A stretch of 34,876 bases of DNA from Candidatus Lokiarchaeota archaeon (GTDB taxonomy: Archaea; Asgardarchaeota; Thorarchaeia; Thorarchaeales; Thorarchaeaceae): NCBI GenBank assembly GCA_014730275.1, contig WJIL01000129.1, positions 1 to 34,876 on the forward strand. The letters are read 5' to 3'. The notes under the pieces were generated by a model that was given only the letters and a program-made list of their open reading frames with translations, was not told the origin of the DNA and did not search any database. Below, in pieces: positions 15,991-27,079 of this stretch. A program made the position numbers and the translations under genes. The first letter of the stretch is position 1. Every line of letters starts with the position of its first letter.

Positions 15991-16896
15991 ATGATACAAT
16001 TGGGCTTCATTGAAGATTTTGTTGTATGGTTGCAGAATATCCCTCAGAATCTTCAAGACCCAGTTGTTGTTGGCCTTGTATTGTTTCTATTGAGTTTGGC
16101 ATATATCATAATCTCTCGAAGCCTTAGCTCCGCATTGGAAGAAATAGGATTATCCGGTCAATTTTCTACGGGTATCAGTCTAATCCTTCGTTTGATTTTC
16201 GTCGTAATCGGGATTATCCTGGTGGTGAATCTATTTGACCCAGCTATTGGAGCACTATTGTCCCTTTCTACTGTTTTCGGTACCGCCCTGGGTCTTGCTT
16301 TCTCACAGGCCGTAAGTGAGATAGTAAATGGCCTCTATATTTTGATAGCACGTCCCTTTAGAGTTGGTGATTATGTTAGAATTGCCAATGACGAAGGAAT
16401 TGTAACTGACGTGAATCTTTACTATACTCGTATTCAGCAACCTGATGAGACCCGTTTACGAATTCCGAATTCAAAAGTACTATCAAGTGATGTTGTCAAT
16501 TTCCGTGTTGACGTGAAGGATGTCATCAAGGATGTCACGAGCGAACGATTGCAGACCCTGAATACTGACCAGCGGGGAACTCTGAGCAACGTTATCTCCC
16601 GGCTGAAATCAATTACCCATACCGAGACTGCTTTTCGTTATACCTTTGATTTGACAATACACCACAGTCTTGACCATGTTGCTTTGAGAAAAAATTTCGA
16701 TGAAGTCTGTGAAGATTGGGAAGAGGTGTTTCTTGTAAAACCCAATTGGCAGGTTTGGGATACTTCTGATAATTCAATTATATATCGTGTTACCATCATC
16801 GTGGATGAGCCGAGAGAGCTCTTAGTGCACATTGCCGATTTGATGAATGAATTACTTCTACCTTACAGGAAGAAGCCAACTGAAACAGAGGAATAA
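15991..16896 (+). CDS. MscS-family mechanosensitive channel
   Basis: A 301-residue small-conductance channel, close in length to E. coli MscS. Three membrane helices lie at about 24-44, 62-82 and 85-106; the third is the pore helix (FGTALGLAFSQAVSEIVNG) rich in small residues. IARPFRVGDYVRI (119-131) opens the beta domain, LRIPNSKVLSSDVVNF follows, and an alpha/beta vestibule domain runs to about 290. It relieves osmotic pressure by opening under membrane tension. The start is ATG 15991. It ends 12 bases before the converging small membrane protein. Confidence 0.93.
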   Translation: MIQLGFIEDFVVWLQNIPQNLQDPVVVGLVLFLLSLAYIIISRSLSSALEEIGLSGQFSTGISLILRLIFVVIGIILVVNLFDPAIGALLSLSTVFGTALGLAFSQAVSEIVNGLYILIARPFRVGDYVRIANDEGIVTDVNLYYTRIQQPDETRLRIPNSKVLSSDVVNFRVDVKDVIKDVTSERLQTLNTDQRGTLSNVISRLKSITHTETAFRYTFDLTIHHSLDHVALRKNFDEVCEDWEEVFLVKPNWQVWDTSDNSIIYRVTIIVDEPRELLVHIADLMNELLLPYRKKPTETEE

Positions 16897-17277: not shown

Positions 17278-18150
17278 CTAGGATTTTTGGTTATTTTCCT
17301 CTCTCATTTCCAGCGGTGTAACGAGTAATCCTTCGGATGTCGCTTTCAATACGACGCGCTTCTCAATTCCAGCCATACGCCTAATAGCTTCAGGAATAAC
17401 CATTCGCCCTTTTGCATCCACTTCTGATATGTCACCATAGAGCACATGCTTCTGCCCCTCAATAAGACCATCTCTGATACGCAATATTCGATCTGCGTAT
17501 TCAGCAACGCGGGGATTATGTGTGACGTTCACAATGGTTGTTCCGAATTCTCGGTTAGTCTTACGCAAAGCTTCCATGACGATATCGGCTGTTTCGGTAT
17601 CCAGTTCTCCAGTAACCTCGTCCGCGAGTAGAAGCTCTGGTTGGTTTGCAAGCGCTACACAAATGGCTACCCGTTGGTTCTCTCCACCTGATAGCTGATT
17701 TGGCTTATGGTCCATTCTGTGCTCCAGATTGAATGTCTCGAGTAATTCCTTGGCTCGTTTGTCTATTTTGCCCTTTGGAGCATTGGCTAGTTTCATCGGG
17801 ACTTTCACGTTTTTCAGAGCTGACAAGCCTGGGATGAGATTGCCAACCTGCCAGACAAACCCTACCTTCTTCCGTCTGTATAGCATGGCACGCCTATCGT
17901 TGAGCAAGGTGATGTTATGGCCATCAAAGAGCACTTTCCCGGCTGTTGGCTTGTCCAGAGCCCCGATTAATTTCAGGAGCGTTGATTTTCCCGAGCCGGA
18001 AGGTCCAACTATCGAGATGAATTCTCCATGATCAACCTCAAAATCCATACCCCTCAAAGCGATAACTTCCTTTCGTCCTCGGCGATAGACTTTCATGAGA
18101 TCTCGTACCACAAGTTTGTTCTCTTCCGCGATTTGTTCTAAATCTTCCAT
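17278..18150 (-). CDS. ABC ATPase (LolD/MacB type) fused to a C-terminal AbrB-like domain
   Basis: A 290-residue protein. Residues 14-231 are an ABC ATPase with Walker A GPSGSGKST (49-57), Q101, signature LSGGENQR (153-160), Walker B LLLADE (173-178, E178 catalytic) and H211. The usual LADEPTG reads LADEVTG. Residues 238-281 match the AbrB/MazE swapped-hairpin fold: YGDISEVDAKGRMVIPEAIR then LVTPLE. AbrB domains normally dimerise and bind DNA. On an ABC ATPase the domain could act as a dimerisation or regulatory module, or as a transcription regulator responsive to transport (inference). GGAGGG six bases before ATG 18150 marks the start. It is the last gene of the four-gene operon, 14 bases after the permease stop. 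Confidence 0.9.
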   Translation of the reverse strand: MEDLEQIAEENKLVVRDLMKVYRRGRKEVIALRGMDFEVDHGEFISIVGPSGSGKSTLLKLIGALDKPTAGKVLFDGHNITLLNDRRAMLYRRKKVGFVWQVGNLIPGLSALKNVKVPMKLANAPKGKIDKRAKELLETFNLEHRMDHKPNQLSGGENQRVAICVALANQPELLLADEVTGELDTETADIVMEALRKTNREFGTTIVNVTHNPRVAEYADRILRIRDGLIEGQKHVLYGDISEVDAKGRMVIPEAIRRMAGIEKRVVLKATSEGLLVTPLEMREENNQKS

Positions 18151-18164
18151 GTTGTTCCCTCCAA

Positions 18165-20990
18165 TCAGCTGACGTACTGGATTTCCTTCGCGATATTTTT
18201 CTCCAAAGTCTCTTTGGTGATGAAGTAAGTTGTAATGACCACTGCTGCTATCGTAACCAAGAAGATGAGTCCGATAGTAGCAACCGGTACACTTGGAATC
18301 ACTCGGAGCCTCAGCCAGGGCAAGGAGATTGATGTGCCCAAGAAGCTCAAGGGGATCTGAATTGCAAATCCTGTTAGTACGAGACCAATCAATCCTCCTA
18401 TTGCTGCGGCAACCACCGTCGTAGCCAAGGAGTCTACGAGCATCGGAATCATAATGGATTGGCTTTCTGTCCCAAGGGCTCTCAGCACTGAAAGCGGCCG
18501 TCTTAGATTCTGAATCCTGACAACGGTGACTATTGCAATGCCTGCTGTCAAGTAGATTAATGAGAAAACTACATTCAGAGTATAGACGCCGTATATTGTC
18601 TGGGCACCTCTTGAATCGAGTGACTGATCAAGATTCAGGAGCCCTGAATCGATGCTTTCGAAAGAGGACTCGGATAGATCGGAAATTTCGTTCATGACCC
18701 TTGTGTAGTTGGCCCCATCATCCAGCTTGATATAGAAGCTGGAAACTTTGCTAGTATCGGTGCAGGTATGGACATAGTCCAGATTCATAATGGCAAACCG
18801 ATTCAGTTCGGGTTTTCCTGGGAAGTAGGTGGTTTCTATCCCATATTGACTCTGAAATGCTAGGATATCAACAATTTCACAATCTGACGTGTTCTGCCAG
18901 CTAGGGCCCTGCAAAGTGATTTCAATTTCGTTCGAATAAACTGGTGTTCTTCCAGAGATACTTGTCTCGTAATGATGAACTGGTTTGAACGAGGTAATCA
19001 CGTTTTGGTTGTTGAGTGACATCTGGTTCAGAGATTGGGCAGGGGTTTGGTCATTGGCAAAATAGTCTAACCAGAATGCTGTTTCAGCCCAAGCTTGGGC
19101 TTGGACACCAAAAATGTCGATTTCCTCTGTTACATATCGATAGCTACCATCCCATTGTGCTTGCCTGTATTCTACCTCACCGGACGTCTGAAATACAGCA
19201 GAGCCTTTTTTCACACCATCAATCTTAGTAATCTCATCTAGCATATCCAAGGTGACGTTGCTCATCTCTGGACGCACTCGAACAACAACATCTCCACCTG
19301 CCTCAAACATGCTTAGAGATCGAGTATGATTATAGCCTGTTTCTGCTGAAATGGAACAGAACAGACCGGCAGCAAAAACCAGACCAACAAACACAACCGC
19401 TATGGATTCACTCTTTTTGAACATCATGACGGTTCGTGACAACAAACGAGATCCGGGTGCATACTTCTCTGTTTTCAATCGAGAGACAATGTTCGCTTTT
19501 ACGTTTGGACCCCCTCTGGAGAGCAACCGTGCAAAACCCAAAACAAAGATGCCCATGAAGATGACTATAACAATGCTAAAGTACAGAGTTGCTCTACTGT
19601 ATCCAACTCCCGTATATCCGAACAAGGAAAACATTGGATACAAGAAGAAAGCCGAAATCCCGACAGCCGCAAGGTCAATGAAGGGATTGCCCAGATCACT
19701 TTCTTCCTCTAAGACTTCTTTTTCCAGCCATGCATGTGCTTCTTCCGGTGACATAAGAAGGGCTTGAACTGCTGTTGGAATGGATACAGCCACGCCGACA
19801 CCAAAGGCGAAAAGAAACACAGATGCAACAGCATCTTGTTCAAGGAGCAGAGTGAAACCAGCCATCCTTTCAAAACTGAACTCAAGTAGAGTACGAACTG
19901 AACCAGAGAGATAGGACGAAAGTAGGCCAACCAATACAGCACCGAAGCTTCCAATCAGTGCCACGGTGATGGCTTGCAACAAAACCCATTTGAAGGCCTG
20001 CCAGCCAGAAGCCCCTCTGGTTTTGAGAGTACCGACATTTTTTCTTCTTTGATCAGCGAGAAGTTCCGAATTATAGTAAACTAGCATGATTCCCATTGTG
20101 AGGGCGGGGACGGAAAAGGCCAAAGAAATCGATGTGACGGTTTGAGCCCATCTCGAATATGAAATGAGTGTGTCTTCCAGTTCGTAGTCGGATAGATAGG
20201 CATAGGGCAGGGTGTCCTGCTCTATCCGTTTCCCAACATCCTCAGCCCGATCCGCAGGAGAAATATCTGGATACGAGAGTATAGCAGATTCATCTAAATC
20301 TACCCATACAATATCAGACTGACTGACATAGCCCCTTGGTTCTAGCCGAGAGAAGATTTCATCCAACCCGTGCTTGGTCGTTAGCATTCGAAGCATTGAA
20401 GCCCCTTCTCCGGGAGAGTACCAAGACTGGCCGAAAAGACTGGTTTCGAATGTTCCAACAATGATGAAATCCTTTTCTATATCGATTCTTGTTCCATTCT
20501 CATAGATTCTCGCCTTAGCCGTAAAATTGTCCCCTAGGGATAAGCCATAATGCTCAAGGGTAGAAGTTTCAATGTAACACGAAGAATCGTTTAGATTGCC
20601 TATGCTGATCGTGATTTCGAAAGCCTTTGGAAACATTGAGAATGTGTTTTCAGAGAGTCCAAGATAGACATGTTCTTGATACATATATTCGTCGGCGTCC
20701 CAATCATAGGATCTTACCTTACTGAGGAGGTCGGCACCTTCTACGTCTTGCTGGTCCTCGATGATACCTTGGATGTCATCTGTTGTTGTTTCATTTTGTT
20801 CGTAGAATTGGTAGGACATTGCAACTTGCATATCAACTGAGATTTCTGTTGTCATCTCATTTAGCACGTCCGGCCGAATGCTGTCCATGTAGAACAAGAC
20901 ACCGCCCAAAACCCCTGCAGACAAGGAGAATACAATCAGTGTAGCAAGTACTTTTCGCTTATCTGATGATAATCTGGCTAACATGTACAT
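18165..20990 (-). CDS. FtsX/MacB-like ABC permease, 941 residues
   Basis: A large membrane protein with a duplicated FtsX core. It has an N-terminal helix (about 14-35) and a first extracytoplasmic domain (40-275) with N-glycosylation sequons. The first FtsX helix set is at about 283-412 (VGTLKTRGASGWQAFKWVLLQ is the FtsX coupling motif). Helices at 442-490 and 525-548 follow, then a second extracytoplasmic domain (550-800), and a C-terminal FtsX set at 803-926 with VLRALGTESQSI. FtsX-type permeases of the LolCDE/MacB class move or extract lipoproteins, lipids or peptides, or act as mechanotransmitters. The start is ATG 20990, directly after the upstream TAA, with GGAGGGG overlapping the upstream gene's last codons. 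It ends 14 bases before the AbrB-fused ATPase. Confidence 0.85.
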   Translation of the reverse strand: MYMLARLSSDKRKVLATLIVFSLSAGVLGGVLFYMDSIRPDVLNEMTTEISVDMQVAMSYQFYEQNETTTDDIQGIIEDQQDVEGADLLSKVRSYDWDADEYMYQEHVYLGLSENTFSMFPKAFEITISIGNLNDSSCYIETSTLEHYGLSLGDNFTAKARIYENGTRIDIEKDFIIVGTFETSLFGQSWYSPGEGASMLRMLTTKHGLDEIFSRLEPRGYVSQSDIVWVDLDESAILSYPDISPADRAEDVGKRIEQDTLPYAYLSDYELEDTLISYSRWAQTVTSISLAFSVPALTMGIMLVYYNSELLADQRRKNVGTLKTRGASGWQAFKWVLLQAITVALIGSFGAVLVGLLSSYLSGSVRTLLEFSFERMAGFTLLLEQDAVASVFLFAFGVGVAVSIPTAVQALLMSPEEAHAWLEKEVLEEESDLGNPFIDLAAVGISAFFLYPMFSLFGYTGVGYSRATLYFSIVIVIFMGIFVLGFARLLSRGGPNVKANIVSRLKTEKYAPGSRLLSRTVMMFKKSESIAVVFVGLVFAAGLFCSISAETGYNHTRSLSMFEAGGDVVVRVRPEMSNVTLDMLDEITKIDGVKKGSAVFQTSGEVEYRQAQWDGSYRYVTEEIDIFGVQAQAWAETAFWLDYFANDQTPAQSLNQMSLNNQNVITSFKPVHHYETSISGRTPVYSNEIEITLQGPSWQNTSDCEIVDILAFQSQYGIETTYFPGKPELNRFAIMNLDYVHTCTDTSKVSSFYIKLDDGANYTRVMNEISDLSESSFESIDSGLLNLDQSLDSRGAQTIYGVYTLNVVFSLIYLTAGIAIVTVVRIQNLRRPLSVLRALGTESQSIMIPMLVDSLATTVVAAAIGGLIGLVLTGFAIQIPLSFLGTSISLPWLRLRVIPSVPVATIGLIFLVTIAAVVITTYFITKETLEKNIAKEIQYVS

Positions 20991-23780
20991 TTAGACCCCT
21001 CCTCGGTAAGGGCCAGCTTCGGCCCAGTGTGCGTTCAAAGCTTCCTGAAGATTCACGCGAGAGTTTGTTACAGCCACAATGACAATCATGCCCACCATAG
21101 AAACCACAAAGAAGACGAGAATGGTAAGAAGGCTTATCCATGGGATAGAGGGGAATATGCCTACAGGGAATATGAAGTTGCTAGTGGAAATCGTTGCAAG
21201 TGTGTTTGCTATGAAGATAGGGGAGAACAGCAGAAGCAACATTAGGGCTGATAGTGTTATTATGAGCAACTCGGCAACCTGTGTTTTGATGACATCTATC
21301 GTCTCGGCTCCCATCGCTCGCAAGAGAGCTACTTCACGTTTTCGTGAGCGAACATCCTCGGCTGCGTAGACTGAGAACCCTCCAAACATAACAAGAACCA
21401 TGGCTGCTGTTGTCATTGTATCGACTGCGCGGTTCATACTGTATCTGGCTTGTTTGATATATTGGGAGAGTTCATATTCTACAGTTGTCCAGCCGTCGTT
21501 GGCGTACATGAAACCAATTCTCTCTGGATTCTCACTGACTGCGTTACCACAGCTATTCATGAGTTCCTCCGCTATCGCTGTGGAATTTGTGCCTTCATTG
21601 ACGTTTACACAAAGGACGCTACGTGCTGAACTAGTGAAATTAACCCCGCCTGCAAGATATTCTCTGTTTGCATATATGACATCTGTTCCGAAAGGCCGCT
21701 GGTAATAGGAATCGTGCTGGGTTTTCAAGAGACTTGCATCAGAAAGGCCTTTCACTATGCCGAGAACTGAAAACACATAGATTTTTTGACCTTCGTCTGT
21801 TTCGATTGATGCTCTCATGGAATTCCCCACAGCCAAATCGTATTCGTCAGCTATGTCGTTAGTTATTATGGCGCCATTCGGTGTATCCTCCAACTCCTCC
21901 ATCTTCTGGGCAAGTATGGCTGATTCATTCAACAATGTTCCTGTATAGTCATATCCTACTTGACCAAACTCGCTTGGATCGAAAGCTGCTAGACGTAAAT
22001 CTCCTCCATACTGTGTTGAGAGCATCACGTCCAAAACAGACAAGAGAGCCATTTTTTCGGTATCTGGATGAGCAGACACATTGTTGAAGAAAGCTTCCCA
22101 GTCTTCTGGGTGTTGTTCATCTAGATGAAATGTCATATCTCCCGCAAATGCGAAGCGGGCATGGTTCTTCTTGGTCATGGGCAATGATGTATCTATCACA
22201 GCCATGTTCCATGCCAAGCTTATGGCGAGTACCAGAACTAATATCGTTGGGGCTGCTGATGAGGCACTTTTTCCAACTCTTCGAACACCCACCGAAGCGG
22301 ACAGCTTTCCTACTGCTTTTTCAAACTCTCTGGATATTCGTGAAGAACCCTTTCTTAATGCCTTGATTGTCAGGCTGGCAATCGCTAGAAAGATAGCCAG
22401 AGGCACTACAGAGAGAATGAAGGAAAGCATCGGGTTAGTTTGAGCTTGGGCTCCAAGAGAGTACAAAGCTACTGTAATAAGAATCGATAACACCAGAACG
22501 ACCGAATCCCAACGGATAAGTCTCAGACCCTTAGCTAGCTTGGCAAGCTTGCCTTCACCTTCATCCACTGGCTCTTTAATTGCATAGATAACAAAGTAGC
22601 TGCCCAGCGTCATCATCGGAAGAATCATGCCAACCACAGCTGTTAGAATCAATGATTCAAGCGTAATAAGAAATGGCTCGGAAAAGAACAGGTTTGGTAT
22701 AAACTGAAAATAGCCGACAGCAGAGAGAGCTATTCTGCTAAGCAACACACCGAGTCCTAATCCCAATATGGTGCCAGAAGCTGAAAGAATCAGTATTTCT
22801 CGAATGATAATCCTGTCAGTATCTTGTTTTGAAGCTCCTCGAGCTTGGAGCATACTGGTCTCATACTCACGTTCATTCACATTGTATCGTATTGCAAGCA
22901 ACATTAAAAGAATGACAAGAAGCATGATCCCTGTCGACCGCACTAGCTGGCTCATCCTTGCACTGGCTTGCCAGTCTTTGTATTCCAAAAGTGCCCTACC
23001 TATGATATTGTTTACTCTATACTGCGAATACCCTTGCTGCTCATATTGTGGATCTAAGCTCTGCACTGCCTCCTCTATTCTTCTAACAAAGGCGATGGAA
23101 CTACTCACATCAAACGGTGTTACTGGGTCCCTGTTGATTTCGACGTGAACGGACTCCTCTATGTAGTAATTGTCATATCCTTCTGAGCCCACGACTTCGG
23201 GGAGGACAATGGCTATCGCGAAGTATGAACCATACCACCCAGGCAATTGCGAGGGGTGGTTTTCAAACAACCCGACGACGGTCATATTGATCCAATGTGG
23301 TTGTTCCACATCACTTCTGTAGTATGAGTAGTTTATTGTCTTGCCAATGGAAGCATTTAGATCGGTTGCTCTTTCAAATGCAATTGCGATTTCGGATGTG
23401 CTATTGGGATACCGGCCCGATTGTATTGAATAGACATCGGGAAACTCCTCGAGGTAGGTACTATCGATGTAAGCTATCTTGAGGTTGCTTGCATATCTTA
23501 AATCTCCTGACCTAAACCATCCTTCTCCTAAGGTTATCGCTGCAGCTTTCTGGATTCCGTCGATGGCTTCAATGTCGTCAACTTCTGCTTGGATATCTCC
23601 ACCTTCTAAAGACATAGCAACGGGCCCAATGTCCATGTAGCTTTCCCATTCATGAATCGAATAGGAGTCGACATAGACTGTTGTACCCATAGCAACTGCT
23701 GATGCTAGGCATAAACAAATCAGTGTTAGCCCTTTTCTTCTCAAGCTGTGAAATGCTTCGTAACCTGCAGGTACAGCCAA
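20991..23780 (-). CDS. FtsX/MacB-like ABC permease, 929 residues
   Basis: A paralogue-like partner of the adjacent 941-residue permease with the same plan: an N-terminal helix (about 17-36), a first extracytoplasmic domain, an FtsX helix set near 280-400 (MLQARGASKQDTDRIIIREI), helices at about 420-470 and 500-530, a second extracytoplasmic domain, and a C-terminal FtsX set near 785-910 (ALLRAMGAETIDVIKTQVAE). Sequence identity to the 941-residue protein is visibly low, so they are probably non-interchangeable halves of one transporter. The start is TTG 23780 with AAGGGGAAAG just before it, 12 bases after the ATPase stop. Its own stop abuts the next gene's ATG. Confidence 0.85.
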   Translation of the reverse strand: MAVPAGYEAFHSLRRKGLTLICLCLASAVAMGTTVYVDSYSIHEWESYMDIGPVAMSLEGGDIQAEVDDIEAIDGIQKAAAITLGEGWFRSGDLRYASNLKIAYIDSTYLEEFPDVYSIQSGRYPNSTSEIAIAFERATDLNASIGKTINYSYYRSDVEQPHWINMTVVGLFENHPSQLPGWYGSYFAIAIVLPEVVGSEGYDNYYIEESVHVEINRDPVTPFDVSSSIAFVRRIEEAVQSLDPQYEQQGYSQYRVNNIIGRALLEYKDWQASARMSQLVRSTGIMLLVILLMLLAIRYNVNEREYETSMLQARGASKQDTDRIIIREILILSASGTILGLGLGVLLSRIALSAVGYFQFIPNLFFSEPFLITLESLILTAVVGMILPMMTLGSYFVIYAIKEPVDEGEGKLAKLAKGLRLIRWDSVVLVLSILITVALYSLGAQAQTNPMLSFILSVVPLAIFLAIASLTIKALRKGSSRISREFEKAVGKLSASVGVRRVGKSASSAAPTILVLVLAISLAWNMAVIDTSLPMTKKNHARFAFAGDMTFHLDEQHPEDWEAFFNNVSAHPDTEKMALLSVLDVMLSTQYGGDLRLAAFDPSEFGQVGYDYTGTLLNESAILAQKMEELEDTPNGAIITNDIADEYDLAVGNSMRASIETDEGQKIYVFSVLGIVKGLSDASLLKTQHDSYYQRPFGTDVIYANREYLAGGVNFTSSARSVLCVNVNEGTNSTAIAEELMNSCGNAVSENPERIGFMYANDGWTTVEYELSQYIKQARYSMNRAVDTMTTAAMVLVMFGGFSVYAAEDVRSRKREVALLRAMGAETIDVIKTQVAELLIITLSALMLLLLFSPIFIANTLATISTSNFIFPVGIFPSIPWISLLTILVFFVVSMVGMIVIVAVTNSRVNLQEALNAHWAEAGPYRGGV

Positions 23781-23792
23781 TTCTTTCCCCTT

Positions 23793-24491
23793 CTATTCTA
23801 CGCCGACGATTTCTCCGTCTCTCATTCTATAGGTCTTGTCCATTTGTTTGCCTACTTCGGGATCGTGAGTTACAGATACTAAGGTTCCGCCTTCTCCTTT
23901 GGTGAGCTTGACAAGGACGTCGACGATTTCTTGTCCGGTTTGAGTGTCCAAATCACCGGTAGGTTCATCAGCTAACACAACCACTGATTTTGCTGACCCC
24001 TCTGGTTTGGCAAGAGCCCTTGCTATTGCAACCCGTTGCTGTTCGCCTCCTGACAACTCATCAGGTCTATGCTCTGCCCGTTCTGTTAAGCCTACAAGTC
24101 CTAGCAGGTGCTCTACTCGTTCCCTCCTCTGCTCTTCTTCTACTCCGGCGATGAGCAATGGCAGCTCCACATTCTCGTAAGCTGTAAGAACTGGAAGGAG
24201 ATTGAAAAATTGGAAAACGAAACTAATTTTGTCCCGCCTAATCCGTGTTAGTTCCTTTTCCGTCATTTCGGTGATATCGGTTCCATCAACGACAACGCTT
24301 CCCGTGGTTGGTTTGTCAAGTGCACCAATCATATTGAGCAGTGTTGTCTTGCCGGAACCAGAAGGCCCCATAATGGCAACAGCTTCGCCGCGCTTCACCT
24401 CAAGATTCACTCCACGCAGAGCTGGAACATCTACTTCACCCATATGATATATTTTTGAGACATCGGCTAGCTTCAGTATACTATCTTCCAA
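23793..24491 (-). CDS. ABC ATPase, LolD/MacB type
   Basis: A 232-residue ATPase with all motifs: Walker A GPSGSGKTT (42-50), Q94, LSGGEQQR (146-153), VVLADEPTGDLD (171-182, E176 catalytic) and H209. KPEGSAKS before Walker B is a short insertion compared with typical LolD. It is the first gene of a four-gene operon encoding ATPase, permease, permease and ATPase-AbrB, and probably pairs with the permeases to form an exporter or extractor. It starts at TTG 24491 (the upstream codons in frame run back to a stop without another start), with GGGAGTGGG 8-16 bases upstream. Unlike the other ATPase it has no C-terminal extension. Confidence 0.92.
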   Translation of the reverse strand: MEDSILKLADVSKIYHMGEVDVPALRGVNLEVKRGEAVAIMGPSGSGKTTLLNMIGALDKPTTGSVVVDGTDITEMTEKELTRIRRDKISFVFQFFNLLPVLTAYENVELPLLIAGVEEEQRRERVEHLLGLVGLTERAEHRPDELSGGEQQRVAIARALAKPEGSAKSVVVLADEPTGDLDTQTGQEIVDVLVKLTKGEGGTLVSVTHDPEVGKQMDKTYRMRDGEIVGVE

Positions 24492-25840: not shown

Positions 25841-27079
25841 TCAATCTTCGGAGACCGATAGCTCAGCAGCTATCTGAAAGAGCTTCTCAATGTTCTTATT
25901 TTCTACACAAGATGTTTCTAGAAAGGCAACGGGGTGGAATTCCTTTTCTTGACCAAGTTCAGTAGCCAGCTTCTCAGCGTACTCGAAGCCCTCCTCTTCG
26001 CCTACAAATTCATCAGACTTCTCTGATGCTTGCTCCACTCTTTTGTCATACTTGTTACCCGCGATAATAAGCGGGGGTAGGGTCTTTCTTGATATTGAAA
26101 GTTCTTTTATCCAGAAATTCAGGCTTTCAAAACTCCATCTATCACCTGCTGAATAGACTACTATGGCAACATCCGCGTCTCCATAGTATTCATTTCGCGG
26201 TATACGGTGACCTACAGCATCATCAAAAGACCATACATATAGATTCACTCGGTATTCATTTGTTCTGAACAGTTTCTTGTATACATAATCCTCTTCGCTT
26301 GCTTCTAATTCGCCCGTTTGGATTAGCGACTTTTTGCCTACATTCTCTTCTCCGATTAGAAGACATTTTCTGTCGACAAGTGGTTTTATCATGTGTTGGC
26401 TTGCGATGTCGGGTTCTTCTGTGCCCGTTTTTACAGCTTCGGTGGTGGGTGTTCCCTCAGCTTCGGTCACGCCTGTTTCTTCCGCCTTCATTTCTATTTC
26501 GGGCTGTGTAGATTCTATGTCATTTTCAACTGGTTTGTCCTGAATGCTTGATTGCTTTGGAAGGCTTGCAGATGACGCAGCGATTTCAGTTTGAGACTTC
26601 AGCTTGACCTGAATGCCACTACTAGTTTTCTTCTGATGAGTTCCCTTTGGTGATCGAAAGGTATCACTCATCGATTCTACAGCTGCCAATGCTTCTGATA
26701 TGTCATCTACTTCTTTACCTGCAACACGGTGCTTCTTCAGGAGTTTTTCAGAAGGGGTTACAGGTTCGGCTGTAGATTCTTTGGTTTCCTTTTTGGGTAT
26801 TAGATCCGAAGGTTCTTCTGCTGCTACTGCTGATGATTCTGTTGAAATCTCTTCTGACCGCTGCAGCTCCTCTTCCACTCCAATTTTCCGAAGCACGTCT
26901 TCGATATGCCCTGGTGGAAATCTCTTATCGAAAAAACGGAAATAGGATTTGACCTCCTTTACTATCTCTTCGAAGGACTTCGATTCAGTTGGGATTTTCT
27001 TCTTGATTCTGCCTTCGTCTCGCAGCTCGACGTAACCTGGCAGTAGAGCTAACGTAACCGTTGTTCCTGGCACCTTCAT
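25841..27079 (-). CDS. Ras/Rab-like small GTPase with long N-terminal extension
   Basis: A 412-residue protein in three parts. Residues 1-75 are a compact domain of unknown family (MKVPGTTVTLALLPGYVEL, then FEEIVKEVKSYFRFFDKRF). Residues 76-230 are a low-complexity, Ser/Thr/Glu/Lys-rich, probably disordered linker. Residues 236-410 are a Ras-superfamily G domain with P-loop GEENVGKKS (243-251), YYGDADVAIVVYS and RWSFESLNFWIKEL (the Rab/Ras helix-3 pattern), G4 NKYD (342-345) and G5 ETSC (388-391). The G3 motif, normally WDTAGQE, reads WSFDDAV, losing the DxxG residues that handle the gamma-phosphate. GTP binding is thus likely but normal hydrolysis switching is doubtful. No C-terminal prenylation motif is visible. 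Such GTPases are expanded in Asgard archaea. It is divergent from the phosphoribosyltransferase gene. Confidence 0.85.
   Translation of the reverse strand: MKVPGTTVTLALLPGYVELRDEGRIKKKIPTESKSFEEIVKEVKSYFRFFDKRFPPGHIEDVLRKIGVEEELQRSEEISTESSAVAAEEPSDLIPKKETKESTAEPVTPSEKLLKKHRVAGKEVDDISEALAAVESMSDTFRSPKGTHQKKTSSGIQVKLKSQTEIAASSASLPKQSSIQDKPVENDIESTQPEIEMKAEETGVTEAEGTPTTEAVKTGTEEPDIASQHMIKPLVDRKCLLIGEENVGKKSLIQTGELEASEEDYVYKKLFRTNEYRVNLYVWSFDDAVGHRIPRNEYYGDADVAIVVYSAGDRWSFESLNFWIKELSISRKTLPPLIIAGNKYDKRVEQASEKSDEFVGEEEGFEYAEKLATELGQEKEFHPVAFLETSCVENKNIEKLFQIAAELSVSED

Follow-up and report, generated by a model that had tools for sequence, protein, structure and literature searches.

The window (the whole stretch of 34,876 nucleotides of archaeal DNA that was analysed) carries a four-gene operon in the order ATPase 1, permease 1, permease 2 and tailed ATPase; consecutive genes are separated by 12, 0 and 14 bp. 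The coordinates of these genes, and of the domains and motifs of the tailed ATPase, are collected in Table 1. In the hydropathy profile of permease 2, ten hydrophobic segments and two large loops can be distinguished. Convergent with the operon lies a gene for an MscS-type mechanosensitive channel (15991-16896, plus strand), and the minus strand at 25841-27079 encodes a protein of 412 aa in which a Ras/Roc-like GTPase domain (residues 238-405) follows a long N-terminal part that gave no Pfam match.

Table 1. Genes of the operon and features of the tailed ATPase, in positions of the window.
Feature	Position	Strand	Basis
CDS, AbrB-tailed ABC ATPase, 290 aa	17278..18150	-	intact ORF; orthologues in 38/47 family genomes
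AbrB/MazE/MraZ swapped-hairpin-type domain, residues 241-281 (start ~239-241)	17308..17430	-	Pfam, NCBIfam, tail model, profiles
Short conserved linker, residues 231-240 (EGQKHVLYGD)	17431..17460	-	identity among 19 orthologues
ABC nucleotide-binding domain, residues 13-230, LolD/MacB/YbbA type	17461..18114	-	Pfam, NCBIfam, Foldseek
Walker B LLLADE, residues 173-178, catalytic Glu178	17617..17634	-	translation
ABC signature LSGGEN, residues 153-158	17677..17694	-	translation
Walker A GPSGSGKS, residues 49-56	17983..18006	-	translation
FtsX-like permease 2, 941 aa, ~10 TM, duplicated YbbP-like layout	18165..20990	-	two FtsX stretches, hydropathy
FtsX-like permease 1, 929 aa, 10-11 predicted TM, duplicated layout	20991..23780	-	two FtsX stretches, hydropathy
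Partner ABC ATPase without tail, 232 aa, motifs intact; start codon TTG uncertain	23793..24491	-	

The last gene of the operon encodes an ABC ATPase of LolD/YbbA type that carries an AbrB-fold domain at its C-terminus. Its ATPase motifs had been described as complete in the original prediction, and all of them are present in the translation, including the Q-loop (FVWQ), the D-loop and the H-loop (His211), with D177 and E178 of Walker B invariant. Pfam ABC_tran covers residues 32-180 (E=3e-33), and the best structural matches of the ATPase model in Foldseek are MJ0796, MacB, LolD and YbbA. The top-ranked NCBIfam model is LolD (TIGR02211), with 230 bits against an equivalog cut-off of 307.75; as this model ranks first but far under its cut-off, the protein is assigned to the type VII class and not to LolD itself. 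The motifs, the LolD/MacB/YbbA-like fold and sequence and the operon with an FtsX-like permease all agree with this class, whereas LolD proper is set apart both by the score and by the permeases, which here are duplicated chains of approximately 930-941 aa rather than LolC/LolE partners.

Identity and conservation of the C-terminal domain

With Pfam, MraZ (PF02381) gave 26.3 bits for the isolated tail and 22.3 bits within the whole protein (cut-off 23), and MazE_antitoxin (PF04014) gave 22.9 bits, just under its cut-off of 24.7; since the scores straddle the cut-offs, the single-sequence Pfam support is borderline. The NCBIfam model lp_hng_hel_AbrB matches the tail at E=1e-4. Because the tail came out at low confidence in the full-length AlphaFold model, it was modelled separately, and the tail-only AlphaFold2 model (single chain) reached block means of 87-90 pLDDT across the core. 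Its leading PDB matches in Foldseek are SpoVT, AbrB-N, an AbrB-like “histone-like” protein, MazE and MraZ (probability 0.9-1.0), and the fold so matched is that of DNA-binding regulators and antitoxins. A profile of the tails also retrieves free-standing proteins of AbrB size (approximately 75-110 aa) from other archaea and from Asgards, with E down to 2e-10 and with the alignment confined to the AbrB part, and the three of these that were scanned all scored above the Pfam MazE cut-off. The AbrB domain that had been read from the letters at the C-terminus was thus confirmed, both by profile and by fold.

The stretch from the H-loop through the tail is found in 38 of the 47 genomes of the same Thorarchaeota family, in a single frame and with no stops, which excludes a frame error joining two separate genes, the flaw against which the original prediction had cautioned. 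Over 19 orthologues the mean pairwise identity amounts to 0.76 for the AbrB part, 0.75 for the ATPase and 0.86 for the ten-residue linker, and to 0.17 for the last nine residues. In both domains non-synonymous changes are far fewer than synonymous ones, and as the mean pN/pS is equal in the tail and in the ATPase (0.196 and 0.203, respectively), the tail is under purifying selection as strong as that on the ATPase. An artefact, be it a frame error, an assembly chimera or a chance resemblance, could be argued from the Pfam scores on both sides of their cut-offs, but against it stand the 38 family genomes, the fold match and the profile match to free AbrB proteins; we regard this explanation as refuted, frame error and chimera being rejected by the family genomes together with the pN/pS values.

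Two further pieces of similar sequence occur in the same assembly. A second, partial copy (contig C64, 2919-3308, locus L160) spans residues 159-288 only, from the end of the signature to the AbrB domain, with 90% protein and 76% DNA identity, and abuts a citrate-transporter-like gene, and at the end of contig C141 (2-142) residues 1-47 are repeated at 100%. These pieces probably come from a related strain's contig or from an assembly junction.

Distribution and grouping of tailed ATPases

With a profile of the H-loop and AbrB region (A2), matches at E<=3e-8 were obtained in 131 of 228 Asgard genomes, but as some of the weaker ones may be due to the ATPase part, only fusions read in the sequence were counted. 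Such tailed ATPases were read in the family of the window (f1) and in f9, f14, f15, f16, f17, f18, f19 and f20, and a degenerate one in f25, so that at least eight Asgard families beyond that of the window carry related AbrB-tailed ATPases, many of them with an additional zinc ribbon. Uniqueness to the window genome is rejected by these families and by the 38 orthologues. By the original prediction, such a fusion was not known on LolD/MacB-type ATPases; the survey of Asgard genomes, by profile and by reading of the sequences, found it to be common, and it marks a widespread ATPase subfamily instead of a peculiarity of one genome.

The tails fall into several classes. Class A, the window type, has DAKGR...RR and no zinc ribbon; class Zn-GR (loci L153-L155) has an AbrB domain with GR and a zinc ribbon; classes B1 and B2 have D..[YDN]R and nearly always a zinc ribbon; and class C has D..G[NT] with no zinc ribbon. 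A B1 protein (P0003, C132:18511) is present in the window's own genome, where the same contig carries a second four-gene system of the same layout (L159, 3714-11498), P0003, with its AbrB-like domain and zinc ribbon, being its last ATPase. B2 proteins adjoin proteins of 4-5 TM for which Pfam gave no convincing match. At L194, L195, L205 and L208-L210, ATPases with AbrB and zinc ribbon (at L205 without the ribbon) stand beside two conserved proteins of 4-5 TM and no FtsX permease was found at these loci, which are possibly a transporter or membrane complex of an unrecognised type in Asgards. At L197 and L207 such an ATPase adjoins a dipeptide-type ABC cluster, with two membrane proteins of approximately 325-380 aa and OppD/OppF-like ATPases, together with a 4-TM protein. 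In two Asgard families (L003, L043), LolD-like ATPases carry coiled-coil-looking tails of approximately 60 aa in place of AbrB.

Outside Asgards, the strongest matches in 165 other archaeal genomes were re-checked and proved to be AbrB domains without an ABC ATPase. Among bacteria, a tblastn search of plasmids and chromids returned tailed ATPases in the Actinomycetota Nonomuraea gerenzanensis, Kitasatospora and Streptomyces clavuligerus and in Paenibacillus cellulosilyticus (one further Streptomyces match, H5, proved on checking to be without a tail), and a profile search found them in 7 of 300 Bacillota genomes and in none of 299 Pseudomonadota genomes. A restriction to Asgards is overturned by these matches. 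The Pfam MraZ match of the bacterial tails is weak or absent; these were placed in the family by profile and alignment.

Maximum-likelihood trees were built from the ATPase domain only, cut before the tail. The tailed ATPases lie on one side of a single branch in the Asgard tree (support 94/93), in the tree with four bacterial sequences added (91/92) and in the tree with eleven, where all 37 of them are so placed (95/95). These groupings favour a single origin of the fusion without proving it, because the trees are unrooted and the sampling was steered by similarity to the window protein.

Asymmetry of the operon and putative role of the tail

Both ATPases of the window have intact catalytic motifs, so it is the tail, and not a dead site, that makes them asymmetric. 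Every Asgard or bacterial operon where both were readable combines a tailed with an untailed kind of ATPase: two-permease operons (the window, L156, L157, L159, L161, L193, L204 and L211), one-permease operons of Asgards (L198, L200, L202, L203 and L206) and operons of bacteria (L242 of Nonomuraea, L246 of Paenibacillus, and L260-L264). Variants of this layout occur: a duplicated permease pair goes with two tailed ATPases at L156, and with a tandem repeat of permease pair plus tailed ATPase beside a single untailed ATPase in genome G007, and L153 has one permease and one tailed ATPase with no untailed ATPase adjoining. The operons of f17-f18 Asgards and of bacteria often consist of one duplicated permease with one tailed and one untailed ATPase, and those of Bacillota additionally contain a gene for an HlyD-type adaptor or, instead of it, a lipoprotein-like gene; the adaptor points to outward transport or to mechanical work at the surface of these cells. 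The tail on only one of the two ATPases, as initially noticed, therefore recurs wherever both were read, and the asymmetric transporter deduced from it gains support.

Domain identity, conservation, operon pairing and the grouping of the tailed ATPases were computed, and on this basis we favour, with a probability of roughly 0.55, that the product of this gene is one of two ATPases of a type VII transporter, the one with the tail, and that this tail is a cytoplasmic dimerising or regulatory module. Since the tail sits on just one of the two ATPases wherever both were seen, it probably pairs or tunes the pump. The two ATPases, one of them tailed, would drive a type VII ABC transporter (FtsX/MacB/LolCDE/YbbAP-like), in which each permease of approximately 930 aa may be a fused dimer like YbbP and take two ATPase subunits; YbbAP has two YbbA per pseudosymmetric 10-TM YbbP (PMC12646458). 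As the permease looks like a fused dimer, two ATPase subunits are expected and the operon supplies two different ones, and the combination of one duplicated permease with two such unlike subunits speaks for an ATPase heterodimer. The tail would be kept close to the ATPase by the short, highly conserved linker. Two tails could then interlock as one barrel (the AbrB fold is an intertwined dimer, PMC4022651), whether they belong to a homodimer of this ATPase or to two adjacent transporters, and might so limit how the ATPases open and close, in a way similar to the unrelated tails of MetN and ModC, MetNI and ModABC being the precedent for regulatory C-terminal ATPase tails (PMC10710835). We infer dimerisation through the tail and regulation of ATP hydrolysis. 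A heterodimer with one tail per transporter leaves that tail no partner inside, which points to a dimer of transporters (less usual) or to an ATPase homodimer, and L153 suggests that homodimers are formed in some cases. It had also been proposed that the domain might merely dimerise the ATPase; this comes nearer to what the data favour, but an intertwined AbrB dimer on one of two different ATPases would link two transporters.

Instead of pairing the ATPases, the tail might serve as a docking site for a cytoplasmic protein, as MazE-type domains do for toxins, with the zinc ribbon of the relatives as part of the interface. The extra ribbon of class B tails and a domain surface that varies among the classes while the core persists would fit this, but no conserved candidate for a partner gene was found beside the tailed ATPase of the window, whose neighbours vary among genomes, and we consider docking unlikely, if still conceivable. 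The DNA contacts of AbrB are made by R8, R15, R23 and R24 (PMC4022651), a set that is incomplete in every class of tail. R8 is missing from all of them (Ser or Thr in class A, a hydrophobic residue or Tyr elsewhere), R15 is replaced by Asn or Thr in class C and R23 by Leu, Ile or Met in classes B, and across the classes P19 and, for the most part, D11, which are structural positions, are retained. DNA binding is thus probably neither the common role of the tails nor their main one, although free-standing archaeal AbrB proteins also lack some contact arginines, which makes the loss weak evidence against it. If the tail did bind DNA, the state of the ATPase or the assembly of the transporter could control genes, for example its own operon, through a tethered or sequestered regulator at the membrane. 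The membership of the fold among DNA-binding regulators and antitoxins, the slightly positive net charge of the tail core (+1 to +2) and class A, which retains R15, R23 and, in 19 of 22, R24, with Lys247 and Arg265 invariant, would be consistent with it. The loss of arginines, the net negative charge of some cores (P0003 -4, L202 -3) and the short and conserved linker of class A speak against it; such control seems quite improbable to us, and a pump that acts as a membrane-bound regulator, its DNA-binding tail reporting the ATP or transport state to the chromosome, slightly more so. The coupling to gene control that was originally suggested is left unsupported by these residues. It is also very doubtful that the tail is a dispensable structural relic with no role beyond stabilising the ATPase: the AbrB sequences of several classes are degenerate, but tail and ATPase have equal pN/pS, and the tail is retained across Asgard families and bacteria.

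Tailed ATPases among known systems

The pairing or tuning of the pump by its tail would be a concrete case of a DNA-binding fold reused as a transporter part. The tailed ATPases look like an overlooked, deep-branching type VII subfamily common to Asgard archaea and Gram-positive bacteria, with two different ATPases per duplicated permease and the extra AbrB domain on only one of them, and if this pairing is real, they would represent asymmetric versions of this class of machines. To our knowledge, the reported type VII systems use two copies of one ATPase. No description of the ATPase-AbrB fusion, of its spread or of the tailed/untailed pairing was found in open-access literature; the parts are already known.

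The tail resembles AbrB, SpoVT, MazE and MraZ proteins in the fold and sequence of residues 241-281 (approximately), and differs from them in being fused to an ATPase and in its incomplete DNA-contact arginines. With MetN (C2 domain) and ModC (C-terminal regulatory domain) it shares the principle of an ATPase C-terminal domain that dimerises and restrains the ATPases (PMC10710835), although the folds differ and MetN and ModC belong to importers, not to type VII systems. Like the permeases of the window, those of YbbAP of E. coli and BceAB are single chains of approximately 10 TM with an internal duplication that bind two ATPases (PMC12646458); unlike them, the window has two permease genes, large ectodomains and two distinct ATPases, one of which is tailed. 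Finally, LolCDE, MacAB, YbbAP and FtsEX (with the ATPases LolD, MacB, YbbA and FtsE) agree with the window system in the ATPase fold, in all motifs and in FtsX-like permeases, and the window system is distinguished from them by the C-terminal AbrB domain of its ATPase and by an operon with two different ATPases.
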